Below, in pieces: positions 5,960-27,193 of a stretch of DNA of 41,280 bases. The notes below the pieces were generated by a model that had not been told where the DNA came from, made no database searches, and was given only the letters and a program-made list of their open reading frames with translations. The stretch spans positions 1 through 41,280 of IMG/VR virus record IMGVR_UViG_3300017744_000031; one strand, written 5' to 3'. Position numbers and translations under genes: made by a program. Numbering within the stretch: position 1 is the first letter of the stretch; each line of letters begins with the position of its first letter. Origin of the DNA: a virus.

Positions 5960-7552
5960 ATGGCATACGTAAGTTTAGATTCAGACCAGGTAAAAAAAGC
6001 CAATAAAAAGCACAAATATTCTAAGGAACAAGTAGAACAATTAGAAAAGTGCATGGATCCTAAAACAGGTCCTTTATACTTCATGAAGAAATTTATGAAG
6101 ATACAACACCCCACAAAAGGTGAGATGGCTTTTCAACCTTTTCCCTACCAAGAAAGATTGATAGAAAGTTACAACAATCACAGATTTAGTATCGCTATGC
6201 TACCAAGGCAAACAGGTAAAACAACCTGTGCATCAGGCTTCCTCATTTGGTATGCTATGTTCAGGCCAGACTCACAAATTCTAATTGCCGCACACAAATA
6301 CGCAGGAGCATCAGACATCATGTCAAGGGTGCGTTATGCTTATGAGATGTTGCCAGCATGGATCAAAGCAGGTGTGAACCAATATAACAGGAATTCAATA
6401 GAGTTTGATAATGGTTCAAAGATTATGGCAACTACTACAACTGAGAACACAGGTAGGGGTATGTCACTTACATTAATATATTGTGATGAGTTTGCTTTCG
6501 TGCAACCGCCGGAAAAAGCGAAAGAATTTTGGACATCACTATCTCCAACATTGAGTACAGGTGGTAAGTGTATGATAACAAGTACACCCAATTCAGACGA
6601 AGACCAGTTTGCCATGATTTGGAAAGAAGCAAACAAAAGATTTGACGAATACGGCAATGACAAAGTGATTGGCACAAACGGTTTTTATGCCATGAAAGCA
6701 CACTGGTCAGAACACCCAGACAGAGACGAGGCTTGGGCCGATGCGGAACGTGCCAGAATAGGGGAGGAAAGATTTAGAAGGGAACACGAGTGTGAATTCT
6801 TGATATTTGATGAGACATTGATATCAAGTTTGACACTTGCCGACATGGAAGGTACAGCACCGGTAGAAACAACCGGACAAGTGCGTTGGTTCAAACGTCC
6901 AACACCAGGACACACATACATGGTATCATTAGATCCCAGCATGGGTACAGGAGGAGACTTTGCCGCGATACAGGTTTTTGAACTGCCTACTTTCGAACAG
7001 ATAGGCGAATGGCATCACAACATGACACCAATGAATCAACAGGTGAGGATACTGCAAGGTATTAACAAACACATACACGACACAATCATGGAAAGAGATT
7101 CTAGTGCCACACCACAAATATTCTACAGCATGGAAAACAACACAATAGGCGAAGCCGCTCTTATGCGTGTAATGGACATAGGTGAAGAAAATATAATGGG
7201 TATGTTTTTGAGCGAACCAATACGTAAAGGACACAGAAGGAAATTTAGAAGAGGTTTCAACACAACCGCAAAGCATAAAATTGATGCATGTACAAAATTC
7301 AAAGAACTTGTAGAAGGTGGCAAAATGAAAATTAATTCTCAACTACTGATATCAGAAATGAAAGACTTTGTGGCATCCGGATTGAGCTTCAAAGCCAAAC
7401 CAGGACAGCACGACGACCTTGTAAGTAGTTGTTTGCTTATGACTCGTATGATGAAAGTACTTGCTGACTTTGATCCTAAAATATTTGAGAAATGGACCGA
7501 TAGGACATCTGAAATTACTCCAATGCCAATTTTTGGCTCTTTCACCGGATAG
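5960..7552 (+). CDS. 17: Terminase large subunit gp17
   Basis: This 530-residue protein is the DNA-packaging motor ATPase and headful nuclease. The N-terminal ATPase domain shows a Walker A-type LPRQTGKTT (81-89), Walker B LIYCDE (172-177) and the coupling motif TSTPNS (207-212). The C-terminal RNase H-like nuclease begins around MVSLDPSMGTGGDFAAI (D325), continues with YSMENN, and ends with a PGQHDDLVSS segment. Length is slightly below T4 gp17 (610), typical of marine relatives, and the order of motifs is complete. It docks on the portal during packaging and works with gp16. It is preceded by a late promoter-like box and is followed after 17 bp by a radical SAM gene. Confidence 0.95.
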   Translation: MAYVSLDSDQVKKANKKHKYSKEQVEQLEKCMDPKTGPLYFMKKFMKIQHPTKGEMAFQPFPYQERLIESYNNHRFSIAMLPRQTGKTTCASGFLIWYAMFRPDSQILIAAHKYAGASDIMSRVRYAYEMLPAWIKAGVNQYNRNSIEFDNGSKIMATTTTENTGRGMSLTLIYCDEFAFVQPPEKAKEFWTSLSPTLSTGGKCMITSTPNSDEDQFAMIWKEANKRFDEYGNDKVIGTNGFYAMKAHWSEHPDRDEAWADAERARIGEERFRREHECEFLIFDETLISSLTLADMEGTAPVETTGQVRWFKRPTPGHTYMVSLDPSMGTGGDFAAIQVFELPTFEQIGEWHHNMTPMNQQVRILQGINKHIHDTIMERDSSATPQIFYSMENNTIGEAALMRVMDIGEENIMGMFLSEPIRKGHRRKFRRGFNTTAKHKIDACTKFKELVEGGKMKINSQLLISEMKDFVASGLSFKAKPGQHDDLVSSCLLMTRMMKVLADFDPKIFEKWTDRTSEITPMPIFGSFTG

Positions 7553-7569
7553 GCACAATAATTAACAGT

Positions 7570-9111
7570 ATGAACGTAATGTGCTTAGGAGATAACTCGT
7601 CTCGACATGCTTGGGGGCATCACCTTACAAGCGAACTTGCTAAACAACGGAATGCAACATTCAGAGGAATGGTTCCTTCCGACACATCTAAACTAGAAAA
7701 TGGATATTATCATACTGGACCATTATCAATGTCTACACAAGACATTATCAAACACAGCAAAAAATTTGATAGCGTAGTGCTTTTAGATCAAGATCAAGAT
7801 AAATTTTCTGACCACAGAATATTCCTAGCAATGTTTAAACTTGTGAACGACTTGAAAGACTCAGGAATTGACGTTGAAATCCTAAATGAAGAAAACATGA
7901 AATATCTTTATTACTGGACAGATATGTATGAGAAAAACAAAAGCATATGTGTTTACCCATGGTTATTGATGCACGACGGGTATGGTGAATACACTTCTCT
8001 TTGTGGAAGATCGCAAGAGCCTGTTGCAAAAATAAAAGACTTAAAAAATTGGGAAACAAACAAAGAATATAACAAGATAAGACATGCAATGCTCAAAGGC
8101 ACAAGAATACAAAATTGTCGTGAATGCCATGCATACGAGGATAGAGGCATACGAGATCAACGTTGGAATTACAGTTTTGATTGGATAGCAAGACTAAAAC
8201 TTAAAAACATAGATGATCTAAAAAAAATTAAAAAACCTGTGTATTATGAAATACGACCCAGTTCTAAATGTAATGCTATGTGTAGAATGTGTAATTCAAA
8301 TTACAGCCATTTAATTGAAAAAGAAAATGAAACAATAAATGATAAGGAATTTTTTTCGCTTATAGAAAAAACTCCGGCTTTCAAAATAAATTCAACATTT
8401 GATAGAGTAGATGTTGACTCGATAAAAAGAATTTACGTAGCAGGTGGTGATCCTTCCGTAATGACTTCTGTGTATAGATTCATGGAAAAGTGCATAAAAC
8501 AAAAGAAAACAGATTTCACATTCAATATGCAAACTAACAGTGTCAATATTAAACCAAAGTTCTACGATCTTTGTAGACAATTTACTAACATGTGTATATC
8601 AACAAGCGTAGACGGTGTAGGTAAAGTAAACGAGTATCAAAGATGGAAAACCATAGATAAAAAGCAGAAAGAAAACATACACAAATTTCACAAACAGGGA
8701 AACAAAGTTCATATAATATCAGTAGTAAGCATATACAATGTTGCCACCCTAGGAGATACCATGGAGATGTTTGATAAGGAGTTTCCGTACGCACCTATCC
8801 AGTTACAATGGGCGACATTCAAAAATAATCTTTTAGATCCATATAATCATCCAAATCGACGTTTGGTATTTGAGTCAATGAAAAAAGCCAAACAAACTAA
8901 ATGCTATTGGCACAACGAAAGTGGCACCACTAACATTGTGAATGATCTGTATAATTTTTATGGGGATCCAAAAAATCAAAACACATTTGACCGCGATAAA
9001 TTACGTAAATTTTTCAAATATAACGATGTGCTTGATAGAAGCAGGAGCTCAAACCTAGCAGATTACATACCTGATCTTGAGGATTGTAGAAAACACCTAA
9101 ACAAACAATAA
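7570..9111 (+). CDS. Twitch-domain radical SAM protein
   Basis: This 513-residue protein is a radical S-adenosylmethionine enzyme with the [4Fe-4S]-binding CNAMCRMC motif at residues 234-241. Before it lies a cysteine-containing segment (C127 in ICVYPWL, C145, and C183/C186 in NCREC) that resembles a twitch/SPASM auxiliary cluster-binding domain placed N-terminal to the radical SAM barrel. After it, YVAGGDPSV and an LQWATF strand follow the barrel pattern. The first 110 residues are an extra domain of unknown type. The substrate is unknown; related enzymes modify peptides or proteins. It sits between gp17 and a large structural-type gene, so late expression and a virion or host protein target are possible (inference). 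The late box for the next gene overlaps its stop. Confidence 0.8.
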   Translation: MNVMCLGDNSSRHAWGHHLTSELAKQRNATFRGMVPSDTSKLENGYYHTGPLSMSTQDIIKHSKKFDSVVLLDQDQDKFSDHRIFLAMFKLVNDLKDSGIDVEILNEENMKYLYYWTDMYEKNKSICVYPWLLMHDGYGEYTSLCGRSQEPVAKIKDLKNWETNKEYNKIRHAMLKGTRIQNCRECHAYEDRGIRDQRWNYSFDWIARLKLKNIDDLKKIKKPVYYEIRPSSKCNAMCRMCNSNYSHLIEKENETINDKEFFSLIEKTPAFKINSTFDRVDVDSIKRIYVAGGDPSVMTSVYRFMEKCIKQKKTDFTFNMQTNSVNIKPKFYDLCRQFTNMCISTSVDGVGKVNEYQRWKTIDKKQKENIHKFHKQGNKVHIISVVSIYNVATLGDTMEMFDKEFPYAPIQLQWATFKNNLLDPYNHPNRRLVFESMKKAKQTKCYWHNESGTTNIVNDLYNFYGDPKNQNTFDRDKLRKFFKYNDVLDRSRSSNLADYIPDLEDCRKHLNKQ

Positions 9112-11178: not shown

Positions 11179-12153
11179 ATGGCATCATTGGCTGAAATAA
11201 GAGCGAAGTTAAAATCTCAAGAAGTGAATCGCTCCACTTCATCAACAGGCGGAGACAACGCCATCTACCCACACTGGAACATATCAGAAGGCTCAGAAGC
11301 AGTTGTTAGGTTCTTACCAGATAAGGACACAAACAACACGTTTTTCTGGACTGAAAGAAACATGATCAAACTACCTTTCGCAGGTATCAAAGGTCAGACT
11401 GATTCAAGACCAGTACAGGTACAAGTACCATGCATGGAGATGTATGGCAAGACTTGTCCAGTTCTAACAGAAGTTAGACCATGGTTCAAAGACAAGAGCA
11501 TGGAAGACATGGGCAGGAAATATTGGAAAAAGAAAAGTTACATTTTCCAAGGTTTTGTCACAACAAACCCATTAGCAGAGGACACAACACCTGAGAATCC
11601 AATCAGAAGATTTATAATTGGACCTCAGATCTTTAACATCATTAGAAGTGCATTGATGGATCCAGAGATGGAAGAAATGCCAACTGATTATGTAAAAGGT
11701 GTTGATTTTAGAATTACTAAAACAACTAAAGGTGGATATGCTGACTACTCAACATCAAAATGGTCAAGAAGAGAAAGAGCTCTAGACGAAACAGAAAGAG
11801 CGGCTATCGAATCAAACGGATTACACAATCTGAATGACTTCAGACCAAAAGAACCAACTGAAGCAGAAGTAAAAATAATTAAAGAATTATTTGAGAAATC
11901 TGTTGAAGGTGAGGCTTATGATCTTGAACAATACGGACAGTACTTCAGACCAGCAGGCGTGGCTTATCAAGGTAAACCACAAACACCTGTTGCACAGGCA
12001 CCTGTAACAGAAGCGGCTCAAACAGCGGCTCCTGTGACTGAATCTGCTCCAGCACCACAACCAACAGCGGCGGCTCCGGCGGCTCCTGCAGGTGACAGTG
12101 CCAAAAGAGCAGAGGACATCTTGAAATTGATTAGATCAAGACAAGCAAAATAA
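11179..12153 (+). CDS. 32: Single-stranded DNA-binding protein gp32
   Basis: This 324-residue protein matches T4-like gp32, which coats single-stranded DNA during replication, recombination and repair and organises UvsX/UvsY and gp41 loading. The basic N-terminus (MASLAEIRAKLKSQEVNRST) corresponds to the cooperativity domain. The core contains FFWTERNMIKLPFAG, KYWKKKSYIFQGFV and RRFIIGPQIFNII, all family signatures. C85 and C93 occur where T4 has zinc ligands, but a full zinc set is not evident. The C-terminus is an Ala/Pro-rich linker (about 265-305) ending in a charged helix rather than the strongly acidic tail of T4. It stands alone with a strong ribosome binding site and an adjoining possible autoregulatory leader. 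Confidence 0.93.
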   Translation: MASLAEIRAKLKSQEVNRSTSSTGGDNAIYPHWNISEGSEAVVRFLPDKDTNNTFFWTERNMIKLPFAGIKGQTDSRPVQVQVPCMEMYGKTCPVLTEVRPWFKDKSMEDMGRKYWKKKSYIFQGFVTTNPLAEDTTPENPIRRFIIGPQIFNIIRSALMDPEMEEMPTDYVKGVDFRITKTTKGGYADYSTSKWSRRERALDETERAAIESNGLHNLNDFRPKEPTEAEVKIIKELFEKSVEGEAYDLEQYGQYFRPAGVAYQGKPQTPVAQAPVTEAAQTAAPVTESAPAPQPTAAAPAAPAGDSAKRAEDILKLIRSRQAK

Positions 12154-12323: not shown

Positions 12324-13376
12324 ATGACAAAAGTGTTTGACGCAACAAAATTTAGAAAAAGTATCACAAAATCAATTCAAGGACTTGGTATAGGATTCAG
12401 TGATCCAACTGATTGGATATCAACAGGAAACTATGCATTAAACTATTTGATGACAAGCGATTTCAACAAAGGAATTCCCCTAGGTAAAGTAACAGTACTT
12501 GCCGGTGAGTCTGGTGCAGGTAAATCTTACATAGCATCAGGCAACATTATTAAAAATGCACAAGATCAAGGTATATTTGTAATACTAATTGATACTGAAA
12601 ACGCATTAGACGAGCAGTGGCTACAAGCATTGAAAGTGGACACATCAGAAGACAAACTTTTAAAATTAAGCATGTCAATGGTTGACGATGTGGCAAAAAC
12701 TGTTTCAGAGTTTATGAAAGGTTACAAAGAGCAACACGCAGACAACAAAGAGGGTGCACCTAAGGTGCTATTCGTTATTGACAGTCTGGGCATGATGCTT
12801 ACTCCAACTGATGTAAATCAGTTTGAAGCGGGAGACATGAAAGGCGACTTGGGTAGAAAACCTAAGGCATTAACGGCACTTGTAAGAAACTGTGTCAATA
12901 TGTTTGGTAGTTGGAATGTAGGACTTATAGCAACCAACCACACATACGCATCACAAGATATGTTTGATCCAGATGACAAGATATCAGGCGGACAAGGATT
13001 TATCTATGCGTCAAGTATTGTTGTCGCAATGAAAAAATTAAAATTAAAAGAAGATGAAAAAGGCAACAAAGTGAGTGATGTAAGAGGTATCAGAGCGGCT
13101 TGTAAAGTTATGAAAACAAGATATGCTAAACCTTTTGAAGGTGTGCAAGTCAAGATACCATATGATACCGGCATGGATCCATACAGTGGACTTGTGGACC
13201 TGTTTGAGAAAAAAGGCCTGCTTGTACAACAGGGTAACAGACTCAAATACATAGATTCTAAAGGCAAGGAACACATAGAGTTCAGAAAAGCATGGGTTGG
13301 TGATAAATTAGATATGATAATGGCGGAGTTCAAAGAAACTGCACCTGATGAATTAATAGAAGAAGAAAAAGAATAA
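12324..13376 (+). CDS. uvsX: RecA-like recombinase UvsX
   Basis: This 350-residue protein is the T4-like strand-exchange recombinase, which forms filaments on single-stranded DNA with UvsY help and gp32 displacement. The RecA core is complete: Walker A GESGAGKS (61-68), ILIDTENALD as the first core strand, Walker B VLFVIDSLG (148-156), and ATNHTYASQDMFDPDDKISG as the L2 region. The C-terminal region ends in an acidic helix. Length is close to T4 UvsX (391), slightly shorter. The ATG at 12324 has AAGGAAA 5-10 nt upstream. It is followed after 1 bp by a small conserved gene and then by UvsY, the normal partner. Confidence 0.95.
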   Translation: MTKVFDATKFRKSITKSIQGLGIGFSDPTDWISTGNYALNYLMTSDFNKGIPLGKVTVLAGESGAGKSYIASGNIIKNAQDQGIFVILIDTENALDEQWLQALKVDTSEDKLLKLSMSMVDDVAKTVSEFMKGYKEQHADNKEGAPKVLFVIDSLGMMLTPTDVNQFEAGDMKGDLGRKPKALTALVRNCVNMFGSWNVGLIATNHTYASQDMFDPDDKISGGQGFIYASSIVVAMKKLKLKEDEKGNKVSDVRGIRAACKVMKTRYAKPFEGVQVKIPYDTGMDPYSGLVDLFEKKGLLVQQGNRLKYIDSKGKEHIEFRKAWVGDKLDMIMAEFKETAPDELIEEEKE

Positions 13377-13377
13377 A

Positions 13378-13611
13378 ATGATAGATTTCACACACGAAGA
13401 TATAGAACGATTGTGGAATGCCATTATGCATTATGTTCCAGAAAGACAAAAGTTGGACTGTGCAATAGATTTTATTAAAAGTCTAGAAGACATCGGTGTT
13501 GAAGTTGATGAAATAAAAGCATCAGCAGAATACGATCCAAAACTTGAAGAAGCCATTAACACTGTGTTCGAGGATGAAGAAGAATCAGACGGATACGGCG
13601 ACGATGATTAA
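13378..13611 (+). CDS. Small acidic protein between uvsX and uvsY, unknown
   Basis: The 77-residue protein contains THEDIERLWNAIMHYVPERQ, then DCAIDFIKSLEDIG, then an acidic tail with EDEEESDGYGDDD. The helical N-terminal part looks like a conserved hypothetical that I associate with marine T4-like phages. It starts two bases after the uvsX stop, and the UvsY start codon lies inside its last codons (overlap 13604-13611), so all three are likely coupled. A role in recombination is suggested by the neighbours only. Confidence 0.65.
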   Translation: MIDFTHEDIERLWNAIMHYVPERQKLDCAIDFIKSLEDIGVEVDEIKASAEYDPKLEEAINTVFEDEEESDGYGDDD

Positions 13612-14065
13612 TTGGTACAACGAAGTAAGTAGAAATCTAGACAAAATTCCAGACTGTGTTGCATACTTTGACAAAGAACTTTTAGAAGCAAAAAAACAAT
13701 GCAAGATATATGGCAATTTGGAAAGAGCCAGTGCCGCACTACCCGGAATAGTAGAAGAAAGATTTAGCCAACTTCAACAGTTAGAAGCAATATTAGAATA
13801 TTTGAATATAGAATTAAGAAGATTACGATCAAAAACTTTTTGAAAATATCTTGAAAATTACAACCGAGCATTATCAAGCAGAGATGCAGAAAAGTATGTT
13901 GACGGAGAGGACGATGTTGTTGACATGGACAAAATTATAAACGACTTTGCATTGATAAGAAACCAATGGTTAGGCATCACTAAAGGTTTAGATCAAAAGC
14001 AATGGCAGATAACAAACATTGTTAAATTGAGAGTAGCAGGAATGGAAGATGCCGATATCAAATAA
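13604..14065 (+). CDS. uvsY: Recombination mediator UvsY, interrupted by in-frame TGA
   Basis: The reading frame from ATG 13604 (MINWYNEVSRNLDKIPDCVA) runs 79 codons to a TGA at 13841-13843 and continues in the same frame for 73 more codons (KYLENYNRALSSRDAEKYVDG ... IVKLRVAGMEDADIK) to a TAA at 14063-14065. Both halves read as one UvsY-like protein of about 152 residues, matching the family's length (T4 UvsY is 137). UvsY loads UvsX onto gp32-coated DNA. An Arg CGA to TGA transition would explain the stop in one step. Because both sides are in frame zero, no frameshift can explain it. Options are sequencing or assembly error, recent nonsense mutation, or stop readthrough. If the stop is real, the short product spans 13604-13843 and an internal ATG exists at 13925. 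Confidence 0.7.
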
Positions 14066-14678
14066 TAGAATAATACTTACAGACGTAGACGGTGTACTAC
14101 TAGAATGGGAACATCATTTCACCAAGTGGATGTTGCAACGGACACTTTTTGATGAGAGAGGTGCAAGATATCATCCTCACAAACTTTTAGCAGACAAACA
14201 AAACACATATGAGATGGCTGAACGATTTGGAATCACAGTTGCCGAAATCAGAAAAGAGATAAGAGAATTTAATAGAAGTGCGTGGATGGGCACACAGAGA
14301 CCAATGCCCGATTCACAAACATGGGTAAAACTTTTGGCCGCAGAGGGTTGGACATTTATTCCAATCACATCTCAAACATCAGACATACCAGCACAGTGTT
14401 TGCGTAAGAAAAGAATGGGAGAACTTTTTGGTGAACATATTTTTACAAACTACCACATACTAGGCACAGGAGCAGACAAAGATTCAGCATTAGCGGAGTT
14501 TCACAACACCGGGCTGTATTGGGTCGAGGACAAGCCTAAGAACGCACTAGCCGGGCTCAAATACGGTTTAAAGCCCATATTAATCGACCACGAATATAAC
14601 CGAGACTTTGATCATCCAGAAATTACCAGAGTAAATAATTGGGAAGACATTCACAAATTATTATCAGGAAGAAAATGA
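14049..14678 (+). CDS. HAD-superfamily phosphatase-like protein
   Basis: The 209-residue protein shows haloacid dehalogenase (HAD) motifs: motif I DVDGV (residues 12-16) with the nucleophile and acid aspartates in TDVDGVLLEW, motif II T/S in PITSQ, and motif IV VEDKPKN with acidic residues. A helical cap insert lies between motifs I and II. HAD enzymes of this size in phages often act on nucleotides or sugar phosphates. The start overlaps the end of the UvsY frame by 17 bp, and its own TGA overlaps the next start (ATGA). It opens the accessory island, so a sugar-phosphate phosphatase is plausible, but a nucleotidase is not excluded. Confidence 0.7.
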   Translation: MPISNNRIILTDVDGVLLEWEHHFTKWMLQRTLFDERGARYHPHKLLADKQNTYEMAERFGITVAEIRKEIREFNRSAWMGTQRPMPDSQTWVKLLAAEGWTFIPITSQTSDIPAQCLRKKRMGELFGEHIFTNYHILGTGADKDSALAEFHNTGLYWVEDKPKNALAGLKYGLKPILIDHEYNRDFDHPEITRVNNWEDIHKLLSGRK

Positions 14679-15352
14679 AAATATACGTAGGACATGACAG
14701 CAGAGAAGACATAGCCTATCAAGTATGTGAACACAGCGTTAAAAGAAGAGATCCGTCAGCAGAAGTACAACCATTGAAACAAAATGAAATGCGACAGCAA
14801 GGTATCTATACACGTGAACCTGATAAACTTGCTACAACAGAATTTACATTTACAAGATTTTTTGTACCACACCTAAACAATTATAAAGGATGGGCAGTGT
14901 TCTGTGATTGCGACTTTCTTTGGAAAATACCTGCTAAAGAACTAGAACAATACTGTGATGATACCAAAGCAGTGGTATGTGTACAACACGATTACACACC
15001 GGAAGAAGGATCAATTAAAATGGACGGACAAGTGCAAACAGCGTATCCAAGGAAGAACTGGTCCAGCATGGTGCTTTGGAATTGTGGACATGAAAAGAAT
15101 AAAATGTTGACACCCGAGTTTTTGAACAAACAGACTCCAAAATTCCTACATAGATTTAGTTGGTTAGAAGATTCGGAAATTGGATCACTGCCACACGAAT
15201 ACAACTGGCTAGTTGGATGGTATAAGGAACCAAAAGATGGTGTACCTAAAATATTACACTACACAGAGGGCGGACCTTGGTTTGATGGATACAGGGATTG
15301 CGAGTATTCCGATGACTGGAAAAAAGAACTTATTAACCTGTTCAGTGCATAA
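14675..15352 (+). CDS. GT-A type glycosyltransferase (GT8-like)
   Basis: This 225-residue protein begins MKIYVGHDSREDIAYQVCEH, a pattern of glycogenin/GT8-like enzymes, and has a metal-binding DxD motif in VFCDCDFLW (DCD at 78-80). FLHRFSWLEDSEIGSLPHEYN follows the usual acceptor-site region. An in-frame ATG at 14639 exists, but the start at 14675 gives an ATGA overlap with the HAD gene and the correct family N-terminus. It likely transfers a sugar from a nucleotide sugar onto a glycan or protein. The sugar and acceptor are unknown. It ends in a TAATGG overlap with the next gene. Confidence 0.7.
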   Translation: MKIYVGHDSREDIAYQVCEHSVKRRDPSAEVQPLKQNEMRQQGIYTREPDKLATTEFTFTRFFVPHLNNYKGWAVFCDCDFLWKIPAKELEQYCDDTKAVVCVQHDYTPEEGSIKMDGQVQTAYPRKNWSSMVLWNCGHEKNKMLTPEFLNKQTPKFLHRFSWLEDSEIGSLPHEYNWLVGWYKEPKDGVPKILHYTEGGPWFDGYRDCEYSDDWKKELINLFSA

Positions 15353-15789
15353 TGGACTGGCGAAAATTACAATCAAAACACATCCACTCAGACCCTGTCG
15401 AACACATCCATGCAATCAATCTAATTCCCGAACAAGAATACGATCGCCTTTACGAGAATCAAAACAATCTTAATCATAAACTTTGGCAAGATTTTGATGA
15501 AAAATACAAAATAGGATTTGAATTCAAAGACAACATAGAAGACATAGACGTAAAAAGAGACGTTATTGCTATTTGGTGTTTTAAGGAACGCAATGATAGA
15601 ACAAAACCACCTCACATTGTAATAGCAGGCAAAAAATTTGCATACTATCCAAATGCTGTAATAATAACACAAAGCAAGGATATATCTATCCAAGAAAGCA
15701 AGAAAAAATATATAAGAAGACCTTTTGTACAACTAGACATCACACAAGGAAAATTTAGGTCCTTGATAGAGAAATTTAAATCCAAATAA
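15352..15789 (+). CDS. Unknown protein in the glyco island
   Basis: I do not recognise this 145-residue protein. The part from residue 62 to 118 (KRDVIAIWCFKERNDR, then PHIVIAGKKFAYYPNAVIIT) has alternating hydrophobic strands and could be a small alpha/beta or all-beta domain; the N-terminus is helical and histidine-containing (KHIHSDPVEHIHAIN). No membrane segment or cysteine motif is visible. It is translationally coupled to the GT8-like gene by a one-base overlap. It might be a small oxygenase-like or accessory protein, but there is not enough evidence to say. Confidence 0.55.
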   Translation: MDWRKLQSKHIHSDPVEHIHAINLIPEQEYDRLYENQNNLNHKLWQDFDEKYKIGFEFKDNIEDIDVKRDVIAIWCFKERNDRTKPPHIVIAGKKFAYYPNAVIITQSKDISIQESKKKYIRRPFVQLDITQGKFRSLIEKFKSK

Positions 15790-15797
15790 GTACAGTT

Positions 15798-16061
15798 ATG
15801 GCAAGACATAAACAAAGAATGCTCGAGTGGATCGAGAAATTGGGTTTAATCGTAGTGCAATCTGAAATAAAACCATATGGGCCTGGCACAAGAAGATACA
15901 TGGTTGGTAGGCACATAGAAGAACCTAAACACAATGCATGGCAGATGCCAAGTGGCAAGTGGGCAACAACTCACGGTGTACAGGAATGGCTTACACCAGA
16001 ACCACTAGATGGTCCGGCTCTGGAGAAATGGCTTACAGAATATGCAAAAAAGAACAATTGA
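15798..16061 (+). CDS. Small basic protein, unknown
   Basis: The 87-residue protein (MARHKQRMLEWIEKLGLIVV...) has a basic N-terminal helix, a central region with PYGPGTRRYMVGRHIEEPKH, and a C-terminal helix with LEKWLTEYAKK. I do not recognise it. It starts 8 bp after the previous stop and overlaps the FkbM gene by 20 bp, so it belongs to the same transcription unit. The Trp/Gly/Pro content of the middle suggests a compact beta fold, but no function can be assigned. Confidence 0.5.
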   Translation: MARHKQRMLEWIEKLGLIVVQSEIKPYGPGTRRYMVGRHIEEPKHNAWQMPSGKWATTHGVQEWLTPEPLDGPALEKWLTEYAKKNN

Positions 16062-16629
16062 TATTTTAGGATCAGCAGAACAAATACCACAAAAAATTGA
16101 AGGATGGAGTCACACATTCCAATTGGCTAAACCTTACATAAAGCAAAACGGAATAGGTATAGATGTTGGTTGCCGAGAAGGAGGCTTCGCACGAGAAATG
16201 GAAAACTATTTCACACACATACATTGTTTTGATTTTAGAGATAAGAAAAAAATGTTTAAAAAAAATGTTATAGACATGAGCAAGTTCACTTATCATGTTT
16301 GCGGTATAGGTGCAGAAAAAGGCACAGCATTTACAACAAGTAATAAAGTAGGTAGGATTAAAGATAGTGGTAATGTTGCTGTCCCTATTCAAACCATAGA
16401 CTCATTTAATTTTACAAATGTTACATTTATCAAGTACGACATCGAAGGCTACGAATTAAAAGCACTAAAAGGGTCAGAAAAAACTATAAAAAAGTATGGT
16501 CCGGTTGTTGTGATAGAACAAAATAGAGGTAATAGATTCGCACAAGACCTTCTGGAGTCATGGGGTTATAAGTTTAAAGCCATAGACAAAGTTTTTAATC
16601 AAGATTATATAATGGTAAAAGATGCCTAA
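16042..16629 (+). CDS. FkbM-family SAM-dependent methyltransferase
   Basis: The 195-residue protein has a class I methyltransferase fold with the SAM-binding glycine motif GIDVGCREGG (39-48), a second acidic strand HCFDFRDK, and the FkbM hallmark FIKYDIEGYELKALKGSEKT. FkbM-family enzymes O-methylate sugars or polyketides; in glycan clusters they typically methylate sugar hydroxyls. An ORF start at 16009 is possible, but the ATG at 16042 gives a sensible overlap of 20 bp and a proper N-terminus. It precedes an Fe/2OG oxygenase and a radical SAM protein in a tightly overlapping run. Confidence 0.75.
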   Translation: MQKRTIDILGSAEQIPQKIEGWSHTFQLAKPYIKQNGIGIDVGCREGGFAREMENYFTHIHCFDFRDKKKMFKKNVIDMSKFTYHVCGIGAEKGTAFTTSNKVGRIKDSGNVAVPIQTIDSFNFTNVTFIKYDIEGYELKALKGSEKTIKKYGPVVVIEQNRGNRFAQDLLESWGYKFKAIDKVFNQDYIMVKDA

Positions 16630-17107
16630 TAATATTACACACTATGAACTTGAGGAGTTTTTGCCAGAGGAAACAAAACAAAAACTTTTACATATTGCAA
16701 CTAATTTAAAGGATGAGGATTGGACAGTGCATACATCTACTTTGACAGGTAAACCAAGCGTTTTGCATTACTTTGATTTAAAAATGAAATTTAATGGAAG
16801 AAGTTGCTATCTGCTAATGATCCGTCCCAATGCCATACAAGACTGGCACACCGATGGCGGTAAAAGGAAGACAGCATTGATATATCCATTGTCAGACAAT
16901 TACGCACCATGTAAGTTTGAGAAAGGAGAGACTACTGCACCTGTTCTTCTCAACACACAAACATATCACGCGGTATTCAACAACGACACAAAACGTATAA
17001 ACTTAAATATATCTTTCGAAGAAGACATAGACACAGTTTTCGATCAAATCAAAAAAGAAAAATATGAACTACACAGAGATTCCATTACCCACATCAATAG
17101 CATTTGA
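16622..17107 (+). CDS. 2OG-Fe(II) oxygenase-like protein (I)
   Basis: This 161-residue protein appears to be a double-stranded beta-helix dioxygenase. It shows HxD in QDWHTDGG (H76, D78), a second histidine in TYHAVFNND (H116) and R125 in KRINLNISF as the 2-oxoglutarate-binding residue. ALIYPLSDNYAPCKFEKG and PVLLNTQ fit the intervening strands. Small enzymes of this kind hydroxylate proteins, sugars or small molecules. It overlaps the FkbM gene by 8 bp and the radical SAM gene by 44 bp, so these genes are almost certainly co-expressed. The substrate is unknown; a sugar or lipid carrier in the island pathway is a guess. Confidence 0.65.
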   Translation: MPNNITHYELEEFLPEETKQKLLHIATNLKDEDWTVHTSTLTGKPSVLHYFDLKMKFNGRSCYLLMIRPNAIQDWHTDGGKRKTALIYPLSDNYAPCKFEKGETTAPVLLNTQTYHAVFNNDTKRINLNISFEEDIDTVFDQIKKEKYELHRDSITHINSI

Positions 17108-18068
17108 ACCAATAAATTTGTGTAACGCAAAATGCTATTGTTGTCCATACACAACATTGAGTCAAGATAAAACATATCACGGCAAACTTATGACCAAAGA
17201 ACAATTGGGTACGCTGTTGCACGATTATGGATCACTTATCAAAAAGTATAAGGTAAAGGATTACACCTGTGCTGTGAGCCCATGGAGATATAGTGACCCA
17301 TTGGTGCAACCTAATCTAGAATATATAATGGAACTGTGCGATCATTATAAAATTAAAGTTGGTCTTTGTACCAATGGTGTCTCGTTTACTCCAAAACAGT
17401 GCGAGATTTTAAACAAATATATACATCTAATAGGCAACGTTCATATGAGTGTGATCGGACACACCGCAGAAGAACTATGGGAGTTCATGAAGATCAAAAA
17501 AGACAAAACACTTAAAAGTTTACATTTTGTAAAAGAAAACTACCCTGAACTGTCTAAAAGAATTGCAATTGGTGTCAAACATAAAAATCAATCATCCGTT
17601 GCCAGCGTTTCGACTATTGGTGAATATCAAAATGCTATACTGGGTAGAGTTAAGTCAAAAAGAAATTGGGTTGAAAACAGAATGGGAGATGGTGACGGCG
17701 ACTGGACCAAACCCTATAACGCTGTAATTGACGCAAACAACTACATGCAAGGATGTGCAATGGGATCGGGGCGTATACTCAGAAAAATGGAAGTGTTGGT
17801 AAATGGACAAGCGGTTTTATGTTGTGACGATGCGGAAGGAAAGACAAACTACGGAAACATTTTTGAAATTGGAATCGAGGGAGCATGGAAAATTATGCAA
17901 AAAGAACATAAATTAATTTACGATAAAAAATATTCCGAAGCAAAGAAAAACTTGATATGTAACACGTGTTCAAGGGCCAAGTTCAATGGTAAATGGACAG
18001 GTGCCATGGAAGCAAGACTACAGGCAGAACAAAAAAATACAATTGATAGAATAGGAAGTTTACAATGA
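17064..18068 (+). CDS. Radical SAM/SPASM-type enzyme
   Basis: The 334-residue protein has the radical SAM motif CNAKCYCC (C20, C24, C27) near its N-terminus, right after EPINL. Toward the C-terminus, conserved cysteines in MQGCAMGSGR, AVLCCDDAEGKTNYGNIFE and ICNTCSRAK fit a SPASM-type auxiliary iron-sulfur cluster domain. SPASM proteins modify peptides, proteins or sugars; the order with FkbM and 2OG enzymes suggests sugar or aminosugar chemistry rather than peptide maturation, but this is inference. It overlaps the upstream gene by 44 bp and the downstream oxygenase by 4 bp (ATGA). Compared with the 7570 protein, its cluster domain is C-terminal, so the two are different architectures. Confidence 0.8.
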   Translation: MNYTEIPLPTSIAFEPINLCNAKCYCCPYTTLSQDKTYHGKLMTKEQLGTLLHDYGSLIKKYKVKDYTCAVSPWRYSDPLVQPNLEYIMELCDHYKIKVGLCTNGVSFTPKQCEILNKYIHLIGNVHMSVIGHTAEELWEFMKIKKDKTLKSLHFVKENYPELSKRIAIGVKHKNQSSVASVSTIGEYQNAILGRVKSKRNWVENRMGDGDGDWTKPYNAVIDANNYMQGCAMGSGRILRKMEVLVNGQAVLCCDDAEGKTNYGNIFEIGIEGAWKIMQKEHKLIYDKKYSEAKKNLICNTCSRAKFNGKWTGAMEARLQAEQKNTIDRIGSLQ

Positions 18069-18712
18069 TCGGTGAACACTTTGTAAACAAATGTTTATCA
18101 ACAGATACTGGTATGGAACCATGGCCGTATCAAGAGATAGAGGATTCTTTTCCAGAAGATTTTTTTGCAAAATTTAATGAAAGTTGTCATCATCTATTAG
18201 ATTTTGATGGCTTTCGCACAGGCGATAAAAAAAATACATCGTACGATGGCCCTGTTCCTTTTCATGTATATCCAAAAGACTTTGACAAATTTAACATAAA
18301 TCTTTACAACGAAGTAGAAGATATAGCAAAAACAATTTTACCTAAGGCCAAAGATTTATGCATGAAAATAAATCCTAGGCACAGATGGTTCAGTAAACTT
18401 GGAGTGAATGCACACATATCAATCACTCCTCCATTACCTTATAAATTTCATATCCATCAAGAAACGGGAGACAAAATTTGGAGTGCTGTAACTTATGTTA
18501 CACCAGAAAAAAATGTTGGTACCAAAATGTACACACGAGAAAAAGCAGAAAGTTTTGTGAAAGAAGCAAAATGGAAGCCAAACAGTACTTTCATATTTTG
18601 TGGTGAAAATGGTAAAACTTGGCACTCGTACGAGAGCGATCAAGCATCAAACAGAATTACTTTCAACTTGTTTATCATGAAGCCGAACAAGTACACATTC
18701 TATCACGGCTAA
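18065..18712 (+). CDS. 2OG-Fe(II) oxygenase-like protein (II)
   Basis: This 215-residue protein has a dioxygenase jelly-roll pattern. YKFHIHQETGDKIWSAVTYV contains H131-Q-E133 (or H129), an HxE/D-type metal motif; WHSYESDQASNRITFNLFI supplies H187 and R197, and NSTFIFCGENGKTW fits the strand before the distal histidine. The use of Glu instead of Asp in the metal triad is a noted variation that may weaken or alter activity. It resembles prolyl-hydroxylase-like phage oxygenases. It overlaps the radical SAM gene by 4 bp, and its TAA overlaps the TAG of the convergent glycosyltransferase gene. Its role is likely linked to the radical SAM protein. Confidence 0.6.
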   Translation: MIGEHFVNKCLSTDTGMEPWPYQEIEDSFPEDFFAKFNESCHHLLDFDGFRTGDKKNTSYDGPVPFHVYPKDFDKFNINLYNEVEDIAKTILPKAKDLCMKINPRHRWFSKLGVNAHISITPPLPYKFHIHQETGDKIWSAVTYVTPEKNVGTKMYTREKAESFVKEAKWKPNSTFIFCGENGKTWHSYESDQASNRITFNLFIMKPNKYTFYHG

Positions 18713-19413
18713 TTCATTTTTGATTTTAGAAGATTTACGTCTGAATTCAGATGTCTGTCTCGTACCTTTGTCCAAACAAAATTATCTCTGTAATTAATAT
18801 TAAAATTTTTTCGTATTTGTTTGCCAGCGTTGTCATTAATAATTTTTTTTGCTTTGAATGTTACTGTTGGCAAATAAAGGCATCGACCTAACTTCCGGGC
18901 AACTTTTTGTGTATAAGTGTCTACATGCCAATGCCAAAAAAAAGGAGGTGCTAGATATCCTAACGTATTGGTCCAATGTTTATGTACAGCAAAGTGTGCC
19001 GCTGGTAGTGGTTCGTCAGGCCAAAGTTTTGTTTTATCTCCTGAATTTTTATTTCCTTTCCTTCTACCATCACTTGGCACCACCATAAGAATTTTATCCT
19101 CGTATCTATCAAATTCATCTGCAATCAACTGATCCCAGTTCTGTGTTTGCACTTGCACATCATCGCCCATCAGCATGACAATATCATTGGTTGCTTTCTC
19201 GGACATAAGATTCCAACTGTAACAAGTTGATTGATTTGGTCCTATTGTATAATATTTTTCATTTAATAAATCTTTATATTCTTCTAGTCTTGCGTCATCG
19301 TCGTTGAGATAGAATAAAAATTCTGTATCACCTTTTTGGTTTGCAGTGGCAGTGTCGACTAATCTTTTTGCAAGTTCGGGTCTGCCTCTAGACGGGCAAC
19401 AAAAAGAAATCAT
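18709..19413 (-). CDS. GT-A glycosyltransferase (GT2-like)
   Basis: The 234-residue protein begins MISFCCPSRGRPELAKRLVD, a common N-terminus of GT2-like glycosyltransferases, and has a metal-binding GDD in IVMLMGDDVQVQ (residues 83-85). HFAVHKHWTNTLGYLAPPFF and the FFWHWHVDTYTQKVA segment could form the acceptor and catalytic region. It is soluble, with no transmembrane segment. It is on the minus strand, overlapping the preceding epimerase stop (ATGA) and convergent to the oxygenase gene by shared stop codons. The transferred sugar is unknown; by context it decorates the glycan of the island. Confidence 0.7.
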   Translation of the reverse strand: MISFCCPSRGRPELAKRLVDTATANQKGDTEFLFYLNDDDARLEEYKDLLNEKYYTIGPNQSTCYSWNLMSEKATNDIVMLMGDDVQVQTQNWDQLIADEFDRYEDKILMVVPSDGRRKGNKNSGDKTKLWPDEPLPAAHFAVHKHWTNTLGYLAPPFFWHWHVDTYTQKVARKLGRCLYLPTVTFKAKKIINDNAGKQIRKNFNINYRDNFVWTKVRDRHLNSDVNLLKSKMN

Positions 19414-20414
19414 ATCAATTTATTCTTCCAAGTTTCTGGCGTGTGTTCATTTACAATTTCTAAAGGCAAATGATATTGGAATTTTTTTGTGCCTCTAGTT
19501 CTAATATATTCAGCAGTTTTCTTGACAGATTGTCGCATATTTGTTGACGTTTTGTAATCCAACAACTCACGTGCTTTGTCCGATGAACACGTTGCGAGTT
19601 TTACTTCCTTGGGTCTGTCCTTATGATGTATTGGCTTAAGATTTACGCCGGTTTCATTTGCACAGGCTTCTGCCAATTCATTTATAGTTACTGGCTCTTC
19701 GTCCGGGCCAATATTAATTACTTCCCCGACAACGTTGTCGTTGAAAGCAAGTGCATTAAGACAATACAAACAATCATCTATATAACTAAAACATCTTTTT
19801 TGTTCTCCATCTCCGTATATAATAGGTTGCTTACCTTGTAACATTCTGTTTAGCATAATTGACATAACGTTTCTAAAAGGATCATCATACTTCTGTCTCG
19901 GGCCAACTATGTTGTGTGGCACAGCAATCACATACTCAACTCCGTGCGTTTCACATAAATTTCTAAGTACATCTTCTCCGGCCTTCTTTGCGATGCCATA
20001 TGGATCTTGAGGACGACATTCGTAAGTCTCCTTGTATGGTACTTCGTCATGATGGCCGTACCTTGCCATGCTTGAACAATACACAATACGCTTTACTTTG
20101 TTCCTTATTGCGGCTGTAATGGTTGTCACTGAGGCTTCAAATATATTTCTCGTTACTAGCACAGGAGAAAATACAGACAGTCCTTCATATGCCGTTGCGG
20201 CAGTATGGTACACAATATCACACCCTTGCATTGCTTTGGTTAAATTTTCTAAATCACAACAATCCACTTGATGGAACTCTACGTCCTGTGGCACGTTGTC
20301 GGTGTATCCGCCTATCATGTTATCATTACCAGCAACTGTGTGTCCTTGTGATATCATTAAATCTGCTAGATGTGATCCTAAGAATCCGGCCACGCCTGTA
20401 ATAAAGATTTTCAT
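19410..20414 (-). CDS. NAD-dependent sugar-nucleotide epimerase/dehydratase
   Basis: This 334-residue protein is an extended SDR. It has TGVAGFLG (6-13) for NAD binding, SSM at 114-116 and the catalytic YGIAK (Y139, K143), with IYGDGEQKRCFSYIDD and a GEVINIGPDEEPVTI C-terminal part typical of UDP-glucose 4-epimerase, dTDP-glucose dehydratase and related enzymes. It would make an activated sugar for the island's glycosyltransferases; exact specificity cannot be read from the sequence. It is preceded on the minus strand by a late-box ATTAAATA 6 nt before its ATG and is followed by the GT2-like gene with an ATGA overlap. Confidence 0.88.
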   Translation of the reverse strand: MKIFITGVAGFLGSHLADLMISQGHTVAGNDNMIGGYTDNVPQDVEFHQVDCCDLENLTKAMQGCDIVYHTAATAYEGLSVFSPVLVTRNIFEASVTTITAAIRNKVKRIVYCSSMARYGHHDEVPYKETYECRPQDPYGIAKKAGEDVLRNLCETHGVEYVIAVPHNIVGPRQKYDDPFRNVMSIMLNRMLQGKQPIIYGDGEQKRCFSYIDDCLYCLNALAFNDNVVGEVINIGPDEEPVTINELAEACANETGVNLKPIHHKDRPKEVKLATCSSDKARELLDYKTSTNMRQSVKKTAEYIRTRGTKKFQYHLPLEIVNEHTPETWKNKLI

Positions 20415-20420
20415 ATGAAA

Positions 20421-20428
20421 TATTTAAT
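20421..20428 (-). promoter_or_regulatory. Late promoter-like box before the epimerase (minus strand)
   Basis: On the minus strand this reads ATTAAATA and lies 6 nt upstream of the epimerase ATG, repeating the plus-strand geometry. The gap to the upstream gene's stop is only 19 bp. Confidence 0.4.
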
Positions 20429-20433
20429 GTGTT

Positions 20434-21060
20434 TTATGGACGGTAGAAAACTTTGTCAGGCCAATGATCTAAAAGCACTTTGTAGCCTTCCTGTCTCAAG
20501 TATTTTTCAATTTGTTTATTGCTACTGCCATATTTTTTAGTGTTATTGTTTAATTCTATCATGATGTACTGACACGTTTTTAAAGTTTCAACTGCTCCCT
20601 TGAGCACTTCCATTTCATATCCTTCAACATCTATTTTAATAAGATCTATGTCGTCTATTTCAAGACTATCAACTGTAACCATTGGTATAGACCCTTCACC
20701 TATCACACGTTTACTTTGAGTAAAATTGTCTTGAGATAACGAAATTGTTTTTTTCTCTTGTCCCACAGCCAACTGATGTGTTTCTATATTTTCCGGCACA
20801 TTTTTTACTAAACATTCATAGTGTAAGGCGTCTGGTTCAAATGCCACTACTCTACCACAATACTTGTTCATTGCCACGCTCCATGTGCCTACCCATGCGC
20901 CTATGTCTAAAACGTGATTAAATTTTTTATTTTTTTTCTCACAGTAGTCTATAAATTTAAGTAAACATTTGTTTTGTGTAAATGATTTTCCTGCTTTCCA
21001 TTCCTCAAAATGCAAATCATTTTTAGGCACCCAAAATTTATTGACTTTTTCTATTTTCAC
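20434..21060 (-). CDS. FkbM-family SAM-dependent methyltransferase (second)
   Basis: The 208-residue protein has a SAM-binding segment LDIGAWVGTWSVA (51-63), VVAFEPDALHYECL for the second strand, and the FkbM signature DLIKIDVEGYEMEVLKGAVE. It likely O-methylates a sugar or another island product. The start is a GTG at 21060, inside a GTGA overlap with the upstream stop (21057-21059), which makes the start convincing despite the non-ATG codon. It is only a distant relative of the FkbM protein at 16042, with different termini, so the two are separate acquisitions or old duplicates. Confidence 0.8.
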   Translation of the reverse strand: MKIEKVNKFWVPKNDLHFEEWKAGKSFTQNKCLLKFIDYCEKKNKKFNHVLDIGAWVGTWSVAMNKYCGRVVAFEPDALHYECLVKNVPENIETHQLAVGQEKKTISLSQDNFTQSKRVIGEGSIPMVTVDSLEIDDIDLIKIDVEGYEMEVLKGAVETLKTCQYIMIELNNNTKKYGSSNKQIEKYLRQEGYKVLLDHWPDKVFYRP

Positions 21061-21866
21061 AGTATTCCCTTATCCATTAATATTTCGACTGCTGTCCCAT
21101 TGCCAAGTTCATCGGGTGTAAATTGTTGGTATGCAAGGCTATACAACCATGGTTCCGGACCTGCGTAATAAGGATCTTCGATGTCCTCAATATGCAAATT
21201 GCCCATAGGTTCTGCAAAACTTTTCTTATCGCAAAAAACAGGAACTCCCATACAAACGGCCTCAACAGCACTTATACTACAACTAGTCACACAGGCCCAT
21301 GCGTCTTTTAGGTCTTCAGATAGGGGTACCTTTGCCTCGCTTGGTCCTGACGTACCCCTGCCCCTAGGTTTGTGTCGGAGTCTTATTGGTCTGTCTGTGA
21401 CCCTTTTCAATCTTTCTATGGTGTCTTCAGTCCATTTAGGGTTCTCGAGATAATTGTGAATCCCTGTTGAACTAGGACACACTAAAATGTGTGAGCCTTT
21501 TAACGTTGGTGCTTTTATTTGCATTCCAAATTTTTCAAATCTATCTGCTTTACAATCTTTTATAAATTTTGCGTGTATTTGATTCTTGCATAGACGCCAA
21601 TAATGATTATCTGGTTTTAGATTATTGTTATCAAATCTACCAAAATAAGGAGTGTCAGCAAACCAAAAGTTATGTTTTCTTGACTCTAATTTCTTAATCA
21701 TTTCTAAATTATTGTTTACAAATCCCCAAAACATTGCGTTAGGTTGCGGATTATTCTGACGCTGATTGTCTAGCACTTGTACTTGTTCTGGCCAAGATTT
21801 CTGCACACCAGTAAACACTTCCCATGCTTTGCTATTTTTATTCGCTGGTGCGTAAATTGTTAGCAT
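21057..21866 (-). CDS. Capsule-synthesis-like glycosyltransferase (paralogue A)
   Basis: This 269-residue protein has a GT-B-like C-terminal half similar to capsular polysaccharide synthesis proteins (KpsS/KpsC-like): ILVCPSSTG, then WACVTSCSISAVEAVCMGVP, then a conserved end SLAYQQFTPDELGNG. The same ending recurs in three other proteins of this island. The N-terminal part contains FWFADTPYFGR, resembling paralogue B's FYYIDRPYWGE. The ATG at 21866 is preferred over the TTG at 21869. It overlaps the SGNH gene by 29 bp and the FkbM gene by a GTGA. Kdo- or other sugar-transferring activity on a surface polysaccharide is possible, but the specific donor is unknown. Confidence 0.65.
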   Translation of the reverse strand: MLTIYAPANKNSKAWEVFTGVQKSWPEQVQVLDNQRQNNPQPNAMFWGFVNNNLEMIKKLESRKHNFWFADTPYFGRFDNNNLKPDNHYWRLCKNQIHAKFIKDCKADRFEKFGMQIKAPTLKGSHILVCPSSTGIHNYLENPKWTEDTIERLKRVTDRPIRLRHKPRGRGTSGPSEAKVPLSEDLKDAWACVTSCSISAVEAVCMGVPVFCDKKSFAEPMGNLHIEDIEDPYYAGPEPWLYSLAYQQFTPDELGNGTAVEILMDKGIL

Positions 21867-22512
21867 CAATAAACTCCTTTATCTTTTGTGCCCACTTAAC
21901 ATGCCCTTCGGTAGATGGATGAGGATCATTTGGACTTACAATTTCTTTTTTGTCCATTACGAATTCGTAATGACTTGATTCTAATTCAAAAAATCTACGT
22001 TTGTCAATGTATGAAGCCATTTCAATTAAATCTTTATTTTTGTTTGTTAACTTGTTAGGCAGGCTGTTGTACATCACGTAAGGTATTCTGTGCAACTTAA
22101 AAAAATTTTGCAAGTCAATGACATGATCTATGTAACGCATCTCACCTTGCTGATCAATGTCCCAACCAAGTTGCCTGTCTATAAATTTTAAGTTGTCAGC
22201 AGTCTTCCAAGATCTCCATGTTGACTCTAGTCCGGTAAAACGTCCTTTCTTCCAACCATCATTGGTAAGATAATCATGCCTATGTGTGCTTGACCATCCT
22301 ATGACAGCAAAAGTATCTTTGCTATTTTTACCATACCAAAGTTTTGTAGTAAAACTTATCCTGTCGTTTCCTCTTCCTCCCATGGCAATACTGCTGGTAA
22401 CTTTGGTCTCTAAAAGTTTGGCAAGTTCAATACCTGTATGGGTATCAACACCATCTTTAGGTCTTGGTGTGAGAAAGGAACAACCGTTTATAAACACTCC
22501 GGAAATAGTCAT
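21838..22512 (-). CDS. SGNH-fold hydrolase or acyltransferase-like protein
   Basis: The 224-residue protein shows SGNH hydrolase blocks: block I GCSF with the likely nucleophile S12 (INGCSFLT), a GRGND glycine/asparagine block (N49), and the C-terminal D-x-H in NDPHPSTEGHVKWA (D196, H198). This family includes sugar O-acetyl-esterases and acyltransferases, which fit a glycan-modifying island. No signal peptide is present, so it acts in the cytoplasm unless exported otherwise. Its start codon faces the GT61 gene across a 28-bp gap. Its 3' end overlaps paralogue A by 29 bp. Confidence 0.7.
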   Translation of the reverse strand: MTISGVFINGCSFLTPRPKDGVDTHTGIELAKLLETKVTSSIAMGGRGNDRISFTTKLWYGKNSKDTFAVIGWSSTHRHDYLTNDGWKKGRFTGLESTWRSWKTADNLKFIDRQLGWDIDQQGEMRYIDHVIDLQNFFKLHRIPYVMYNSLPNKLTNKNKDLIEMASYIDKRRFFELESSHYEFVMDKKEIVSPNDPHPSTEGHVKWAQKIKEFIDANNLRTSE

Positions 22513-24460: not shown

Positions 24461-25433
24461 AATATTCAGAAGAACAGTAAAAGATCGTAGACGAGGTGCC
24501 AGTTGGGATCTGCTTCAACACATGGCCGAAGGGATACGTGCATGTGGTGACAACCCAATTATTGTAAATGAAACCATGACCGGACAATGGCAAAAAAACG
24601 AAATGGAGCCAACAGCAAAAATTGGTTGTATGTTTGGCTATGGTGGGTCAAATCAAATGCATCACACAAAAGGGCGTAGGCGAGATCTAGTCGAACGTGC
24701 AAAGAAAAAAGGAATATACATTATAACATTTGACGGCGGCATATTATCTAGTTTTGGAAACACAATTACAGATTCTAACCATCACTGGCGTGTATCACTT
24801 TATTCTCCAATGAATAACGGAAATTTTTTAAGTGACAACAGTCCTCCAGACAGATGGGAACACATGAAAAAAATATGGAATATAAAATATGAGCCATGGA
24901 GAAAATCTAATCAAGATGACCCAATTTTATTTGTATTGCAACCTAAAGACAACTGGAGTATGAACGAATTAGATCCTATAAAATGGTTCAACGATGTGTA
25001 TGAGAAAATTAGGCCAATAACTGATAGGAAGTTTGTTGTGCGGCCACATCCTAATCACATTGCACACATAGAAGAAAGATTAAATGAATTTCCGGAAGAT
25101 GTAGATGTTAAAATAGGAAAAAAGTTTTTTGCAGGAGATGAGAAAAAGTACTACAGATTCAATTTTCAAGATGCATTAAATAATTGTCATGCTGTTATTA
25201 CTCACAATTCTACTGCCAGTATCGACTCTTGCGTTCGTGGAATCCCTACCTTTGTTACCTCAGATCTTGCACTTTGTTGGCCAGTAGCAAATAAAGATTT
25301 AAACAATATAGAAACACCCGAACGTCCAGATAGGACACAATGGGTTCATGACATAGGTTACAAACAATGGACTGAAAAAGAAATACGTGATGGTGTAGTA
25401 TTCAAGCGTTTCAAAAACAAGTTGGGATTATAA
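24450..25433 (+). CDS. Capsule-synthesis-like glycosyltransferase (paralogue C)
   Basis: The 327-residue protein is the longest of the four related proteins. It has a polar N-terminus with basic residues (FRRTVKDRRRGASWDLL), a glycine-rich strand IGCMFGYGGSNQ, VVRPHPNHIAHIEERL, HAVITHNSTASIDSCVRGIP and the closing HDIGYKQWTEKEIRDGVVF. The RPHPN and THNSTASID segments are the strongest links to capsule polysaccharide synthesis glycosyltransferases. It overlaps paralogue B by 11 bp and ends in TAATG with the asparagine-synthase gene. It could add a sugar to a surface glycan; no transmembrane segments are present. Confidence 0.65.
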   Translation: MDVEIFRRTVKDRRRGASWDLLQHMAEGIRACGDNPIIVNETMTGQWQKNEMEPTAKIGCMFGYGGSNQMHHTKGRRRDLVERAKKKGIYIITFDGGILSSFGNTITDSNHHWRVSLYSPMNNGNFLSDNSPPDRWEHMKKIWNIKYEPWRKSNQDDPILFVLQPKDNWSMNELDPIKWFNDVYEKIRPITDRKFVVRPHPNHIAHIEERLNEFPEDVDVKIGKKFFAGDEKKYYRFNFQDALNNCHAVITHNSTASIDSCVRGIPTFVTSDLALCWPVANKDLNNIETPERPDRTQWVHDIGYKQWTEKEIRDGVVFKRFKNKLGL

Positions 25434-27193
25434 TGTGTGGCATTTACGGTATAACCGAACACGATCCAGAATTTGTGCAACAGTATATCAAGACATGTGA
25501 ACACAGAGGGCCCGACGGCAATAAGGTTTGGTGGGATCCAGATCATAAATTAACTCTGGGACACAATCTTTTGAGCATTATGGCAAATCCACAACTGTCT
25601 ATACAGCCATGGAAGACACCCAAAGGCAACACACTTGTTTACAACGGTGAGATATTCAACTACTACGAACTTAAACAAAAATACAACGGTAAAGGATTTG
25701 CAGGCATCACTGGCTGTGATACAGAATTGCTAGCCTGGGGACTAGACGAATTTGGACTAGACTTTATAGATGAGATAGACTCCATGCATGGCTTTGCCTA
25801 CTACCGCAAGGACGAACAACAACTTTGGCTATCTCGCGATCATGCTGGTATTAAACCATTATTCTATGCAGAGATTAATGAAGGATTGGTATTTGGTTCT
25901 GAACTTAAAGGCATGCTGGACAAAGTGCCGGGGAGTAGAAAAATGGATAACCTGGCAGTCAGTTTCATGGCAAGGACAGGCATCAATGCTTTGCGTAATA
26001 CTTTTTTCACAGGCATAAAAAAATTGTTAGCAGGTGAGACAATAGTGTATGACATGGCCAACAAGAAAATAATAAACACACATAGAGTGTATATTGCACC
26101 AACAAGCACCAAAAACTTTGACCAGAAAGAATTTAGAACAATGGCACACAAGACAGTAGAAATGTGTTCGATAGGGCGAAGAAAGATTGGCGTATTCTTG
26201 AGTGGTGGATTGGATTCTAGTCTAGTTGCATACGAACTAAAGCAGATAAAAGGTGAAGCAAATACATTCACAAATAGAATGAATCCAAATGTTCAAGCAG
26301 ACGAGGACTATAACAGCGACGCCAATTGTGCAAAAATATTAGCCGAACAAAATAATTTCAACCATGCAGAAGTTGTAATAACACCAGAGGAATTTATAGA
26401 CTGTTGGGATGACAGCATATACTACATGGAGCAACCTGTGTACAATCCAAGCATGTCTATGTACTGTTACACAAACAAGTTCCTATCAAATAATGGAATA
26501 ATTGTTACACTCGCTGGAGACATGGGCGATGAAATCCTAGCAGGATATCCAAAATACTGGAAAATGAAAAATCCCGAATGGTTGGAAAAACAGATAGGAA
26601 AAACAAAAATAGAAAGTTGGGACGACGTGCTTAAACTTTGGTTACGCAGGATCAAACGTCCATTGATGCTTACAGATAATCCTGTGAGCGATGACATCCT
26701 ATTGAAAGAATTTAAAAAATGTTACACAGGACAATTATGGAACCCAAACGATCCAATTGGCTCGTACATGGCTCTTGACTGTGTTGCTCAGGTACCAGAA
26801 GAAATGTTTAATAGAAATGACAAATACGGGATGGCTTATAGTATGGAAGGACGTTTTCCGTTAGCAACTAAAACTTTTATGAGATACTGTATGAGTATAC
26901 ACACAGATAAAAAAATGGGTGCAGATAAAAATGATACAAAAATTCTAATTAAACAGGCGTATGCAGGAATTTTGCCTAAAGAAATTTTAACCAAAGTTAA
27001 AACAGGATGGACAGTGCCGGTTGGACATTGGCTTACAAAAAGCACCAGTTCAAAACTAAACAATTTTTATAAAGAACGCACAGGCACAGCATCTAAACTT
27101 AATGTTTACAAAGCCAGTCAGAAAGCAGGCAAGGCACTGATACCTGCATGGATTGTTAGTGACTGGATTAAAAAATACAACATGACAAGGTAA
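25433..27193 (+). CDS. Asparagine-synthase-like amidotransferase (AsnB type)
   Basis: This 586-residue protein has both domains of glutamine-dependent asparagine synthetases. The N-terminal class II glutaminase has the catalytic Cys2 (MCGIYGI), HRGPDG (24-29), NGEIFN (71-76) and RDHAGIKPLFY (135-145). The C-terminal ATP-pyrophosphatase domain has the PP-loop SGGLDSS (257-263) and the GDMGDEILAGYPKY segment. Paralogues in O-antigen and capsule clusters amidate uronic-acid sugars instead of aspartate; the location between glycosyltransferases favours such a role here. All key residues are present, so the enzyme should be active. It starts one base into the previous stop codon. Confidence 0.9.
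   Translation: MCGIYGITEHDPEFVQQYIKTCEHRGPDGNKVWWDPDHKLTLGHNLLSIMANPQLSIQPWKTPKGNTLVYNGEIFNYYELKQKYNGKGFAGITGCDTELLAWGLDEFGLDFIDEIDSMHGFAYYRKDEQQLWLSRDHAGIKPLFYAEINEGLVFGSELKGMLDKVPGSRKMDNLAVSFMARTGINALRNTFFTGIKKLLAGETIVYDMANKKIINTHRVYIAPTSTKNFDQKEFRTMAHKTVEMCSIGRRKIGVFLSGGLDSSLVAYELKQIKGEANTFTNRMNPNVQADEDYNSDANCAKILAEQNNFNHAEVVITPEEFIDCWDDSIYYMEQPVYNPSMSMYCYTNKFLSNNGIIVTLAGDMGDEILAGYPKYWKMKNPEWLEKQIGKTKIESWDDVLKLWLRRIKRPLMLTDNPVSDDILLKEFKKCYTGQLWNPNDPIGSYMALDCVAQVPEEMFNRNDKYGMAYSMEGRFPLATKTFMRYCMSIHTDKKMGADKNDTKILIKQAYAGILPKEILTKVKTGWTVPVGHWLTKSTSSKLNNFYKERTGTASKLNVYKASQKAGKALIPAWIVSDWIKKYNMTR

Follow-up and report, generated by a model that had tools for sequence, protein, structure and literature searches.

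A gene for a recombination mediator that is split by a single in-frame stop codon may encode a truncated protein, may be translated through the stop, or may contain a wrong base. We asked which of these applies to uvsY in the window, that is, the whole stretch of 41,280 nucleotides analysed from viral record IMGVR_UViG_3300017744_000031. The uvsY reading frame lies on the plus strand at 13604..14065 and comprises 153 codons followed by TAA, with one in-frame TGA at codon 80. Translation from the ATG at 13604 yielded 79 open codons, the TGA at 13841-13843, and a further 73 codons in the same frame up to the TAA at 14063-14065. This bears out the first-pass annotation, which had described an in-frame TGA interrupting UvsY and had argued that a frameshift could not restore the protein, both halves being read in one frame (frame zero) around the TGA. 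The same annotation had taken the downstream 73 codons for the C-terminal half of UvsY and had considered the total length suitable for the family; both points held, since this half alone matched the PHROG 231 profile (‘UvsY-like recombination mediator’) at E 8.8e-8 and the 153 residues compare with 142 profile positions. When the TGA was read as W, the bridged frame matched PHROG 231 at E 9.8e-16 over residues 28-147 of 153, and the intact homologue in a near-identical contig (L083, described below) matched it at E 1.3e-16, again over residues 28-147. Because 80 relatives (the best 80 of 597) align across the stop, nearly all of them along the whole frame, the interrupted frame is evidently not a chance product; judged by its alignments and profile matches, the bridged frame is a UvsY-like recombination mediator encoded by an ordinary, conserved T4-type uvsY. 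A search of solved structures with the UvsY alignment returned weak, irrelevant matches only.

In T4, UvsY loads UvsX onto gp32-coated single-stranded DNA, and the co-occurrence of a UvsX recombinase and a gp32 single-strand DNA binding protein, which is characteristic of the UvsY family, was found in the window as well. All on the plus strand, a gp32-like single-strand DNA binding protein gene (11179..12153; PHROG 1192, E 4e-63; Pfam gp32, E 1.7e-8) is followed by a uvsX-like recombinase gene (12324..13376; PHROG 97, E 1e-63), then by uvsY, and then by an NT5C/HAD-like gene that overlaps the uvsY end and has a true TGA stop (14049..14678; PHROG 420, E 2.1e-26, with a match to PF06941 NT5C at E 2.4e-4, below the curated cut-off). 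Elsewhere the phage contig carries two radical SAM domain genes (PF04055), one at 7570-9111 adjoining the large terminase gene (5960-7552) and one at 17064-18068 that also has a weak SPASM match, as well as a glutamine-dependent asparagine synthase-like gene at 25433-27193 (PF00733, PF13537).

We compared codon 80 across the best 80 of 597 confirmed UvsY relatives from a scan of viral contigs, which are 72-99% identical and most of which span the whole protein. A stop at this codon was found in none of these 80. The codons in its place were AGA (25), AGG (20), AAA (18), CGC (6), AAG (4) and CGT (2), with CGG, CGA, ATT, ATA and GTA in one relative each, such that residue 80 is Arg or Lys in 77 of the 80 and otherwise Ile or Val; this is the alignment with close relatives that the first-pass annotation had proposed as a check. 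Exact-flank scans further identified two uncultivated viral contigs, L082 and L083, in which the 462 bases of uvsY are identical to those of the window except for an A at 13841, giving AGA. In 4,055 bp, L082 and the window disagree at 2 positions, the one other than 13841 being silent and located 14 bases from the L082 end. Between L083 and the window there are 41 differences in 14,658 bp, with 13841 the only one within 12876-19253; since further differing sites occur farther along, the window and L083 are not the same clone throughout. Across these contigs and relatives, the TGA at 13841-13843 is thus private to the window’s contig. As both near-identical contigs read AGA, the change is best described as AGA to TGA, an A-to-T transversion at 13841, and not as the C-to-T change from CGA that had been suggested initially. 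Two matches from a narrow TGA scan at the codon 80 site (L084 and L085) were discarded, their translations not being UvsY in any frame.

The comparison with L083 also brought out two local patterns outside uvsY. Inside uvsX, 21 silent differences fall within about 124 bases (12752-12875), in a tract that adjoins the L083 contig end and is followed by no further difference until 13841; this cluster may have arisen by recombination, or the contig end may be chimeric. At 18709-22512, a region of five minus-strand ORFs, 6 of 8 differences from L083 replace an amino acid, whereas those outside this region are mostly silent.

Selection on the frame was assessed from codon differences between the window and its 20 closest relatives, counted pairwise among related sequences and hence not independent events. 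We found 712 silent and 30 replacement differences 5’ of the stop, and 482 silent differences against a single replacement 3’ of it. The latter ratio shows strong constraint on the downstream half in the lineage, and purifying selection is strong on both sides of the stop, with the C-terminal half undecayed in the window’s contig. A long-standing stop without readthrough would have let this half decay. In one relative with 84% DNA identity in this region (L086), the UvsY protein is identical to the window’s except at residue 80, the 19 other base differences being silent, one of them within the terminal stop codon. The C-terminal part encoded 3’ of the stop is therefore conserved, and its translation in frame needs either a wrong base or readthrough of the stop.

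Readthrough of a genuine stop, in which low-level decoding of UGA (for example as Trp) would provide less full-length UvsY as a regulated feature, is very unlikely. UGA is a leaky stop (PMC7918605), and relatives have Arg, Lys, Ile or Val at residue 80, so that a substitution there could be tolerated; the downstream frame is also intact, but this is equally expected from an error or a new mutation. The conserved stop that would mark programmed readthrough is present in 0 of 80 relatives (best 80 of 597) and 0 of 2 near-identical contigs, which argues against readthrough as a feature, and the 100 nt 3’ of the stop contain no readthrough-promoting RNA structure, being not unusually folded (z 0.37). 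A two-piece UvsY, with the second half separately translated, would be in keeping with the preserved sequence of both halves, but there is no start codon close to the stop, ATG 13925 as the first one in frame would leave 46 residues only, and none of the best 80 of 597 relatives has a split uvsY, making this arrangement scarcely credible. Just as hard to credit is a global reassignment in the phage or its host, with TGA decoded as an amino acid in all genes. One in-frame TGA within a conserved gene speaks for such a code, but TGA terminates 10 of the 48 listed ORFs, including the NT5C/HAD-like gene (14049-14678) and the gp61-like primase gene (36995-38008), the two genes that the first-pass annotation had cited in calling global reassignment unlikely. 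Moreover, no comparable gene-internal stop on the coding strand was identified in the region covered by 82 relative alignments, leaving 13841 as the sole such stop identified as contradicted by relatives; the many other in-frame stops were assigned to antisense frames, to intergenic sequence or to stop-to-stop extensions past gene ends, and those worked through by frame (15313, 15334, 19422 and 21072) lie upstream of gene starts. No tRNA gene was found within the window, which is a fragment, and one may lie outside it. The window hence shows neither in-frame TGAs across conserved genes, nor avoidance of TGA as terminator, nor a suppressor tRNA, the features of TGA-recoded phages, and global reassignment was rejected on terminator use, on the lack of comparable internal stops and on the lack of tRNAs in the window.

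That the A-to-T change is a real nonsense mutation, of very recent origin and dominant in the sampled population, is a lesser but substantial possibility. Such a mutation would leave a fragment of 79 residues that lacks the C-terminal half and is expected to be inactive, and recombination would be impaired. T does stand in the consensus, phage populations carry deleterious variants, and T4 uvsY knock-outs still grow, forming small plaques (PMC3016280); a published analysis found that most in-frame stops in bacterial genes persist only briefly, being roughly as old as SNPs (PMC7918605), which fits a mutation if the base is real. Nevertheless, the stop occurs in one contig only, uvsY is under strong purifying selection, and the C-terminal domain of T4 UvsY is essential for hexamerisation, its deletion lowering ssDNA affinity by about 10,000-fold (PMC3016280). 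A local phage population in which a uvsY nonsense allele is frequent, and which lives with truncated UvsY or low-level UGA readthrough, is improbable; if true, the recombination mediator would be dispensable or dosage-tuned in nature. The T at 13841 instead probably reflects a consensus error made in sequencing or assembly, or else a minor variant that the assembler took into the consensus. We infer such a technical cause, rather than a real dominant allele, because the change is isolated, would damage a gene under strong conservation, and lengthens a TTTT run by one T, substitution errors being frequent in T runs (a weak argument). In a comparison of contigs, a real mutation would give the same pattern as an error. 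With about 5.3% of random single-base substitutions in the window’s coding sequence creating a stop, an occasional private stop is expected when many contigs are screened for oddities. Of the initial options of truncation, readthrough and base error, the comparison thus favours a wrong base or a nonsense variant of very recent origin, and it speaks against readthrough as a feature.

The window’s uvsY is ordinary apart from one base seen in this contig only, the T in place of A at 13841. If the consensus is in error, the phage population would carry an intact 153-residue UvsY, expected to load UvsX onto single-stranded DNA coated by gp32. If the base is real, the contig would represent a phage variant that lacks a functional recombination mediator. 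The locus is an ordinary uvsY with a one-base stop private to this contig, and no new mechanism is needed to explain it. As a caution, a nonsense base confined to one metagenomic contig may mimic recoding or gene loss, whereas comparison with near-identical contigs reveals that it does not characterise the lineage.

Set against known systems, the window’s uvsY shares with the UvsY family (PHROG 231, with T4 UvsY as prototype) the profile match over residues 28-147, the uvsX and gp32-like neighbours and about the same length, and differs in the TGA at codon 80, found only in the window’s contig. Named phage records are all distant, the best place in each being less than 60% identical to the window’s UvsY; the UvsY-like proteins of large phages such as Vibrio phage 2.275.O, Erwinia phage Hallingskeid and Agrobacterium phage Atu_ph07 are 48-51% identical over about 99% of the protein. 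The closest counterparts are the uvsY genes of L082 and L083, which are the same letter for letter except for one base and which, unlike the window’s uvsY, keep an intact reading frame.
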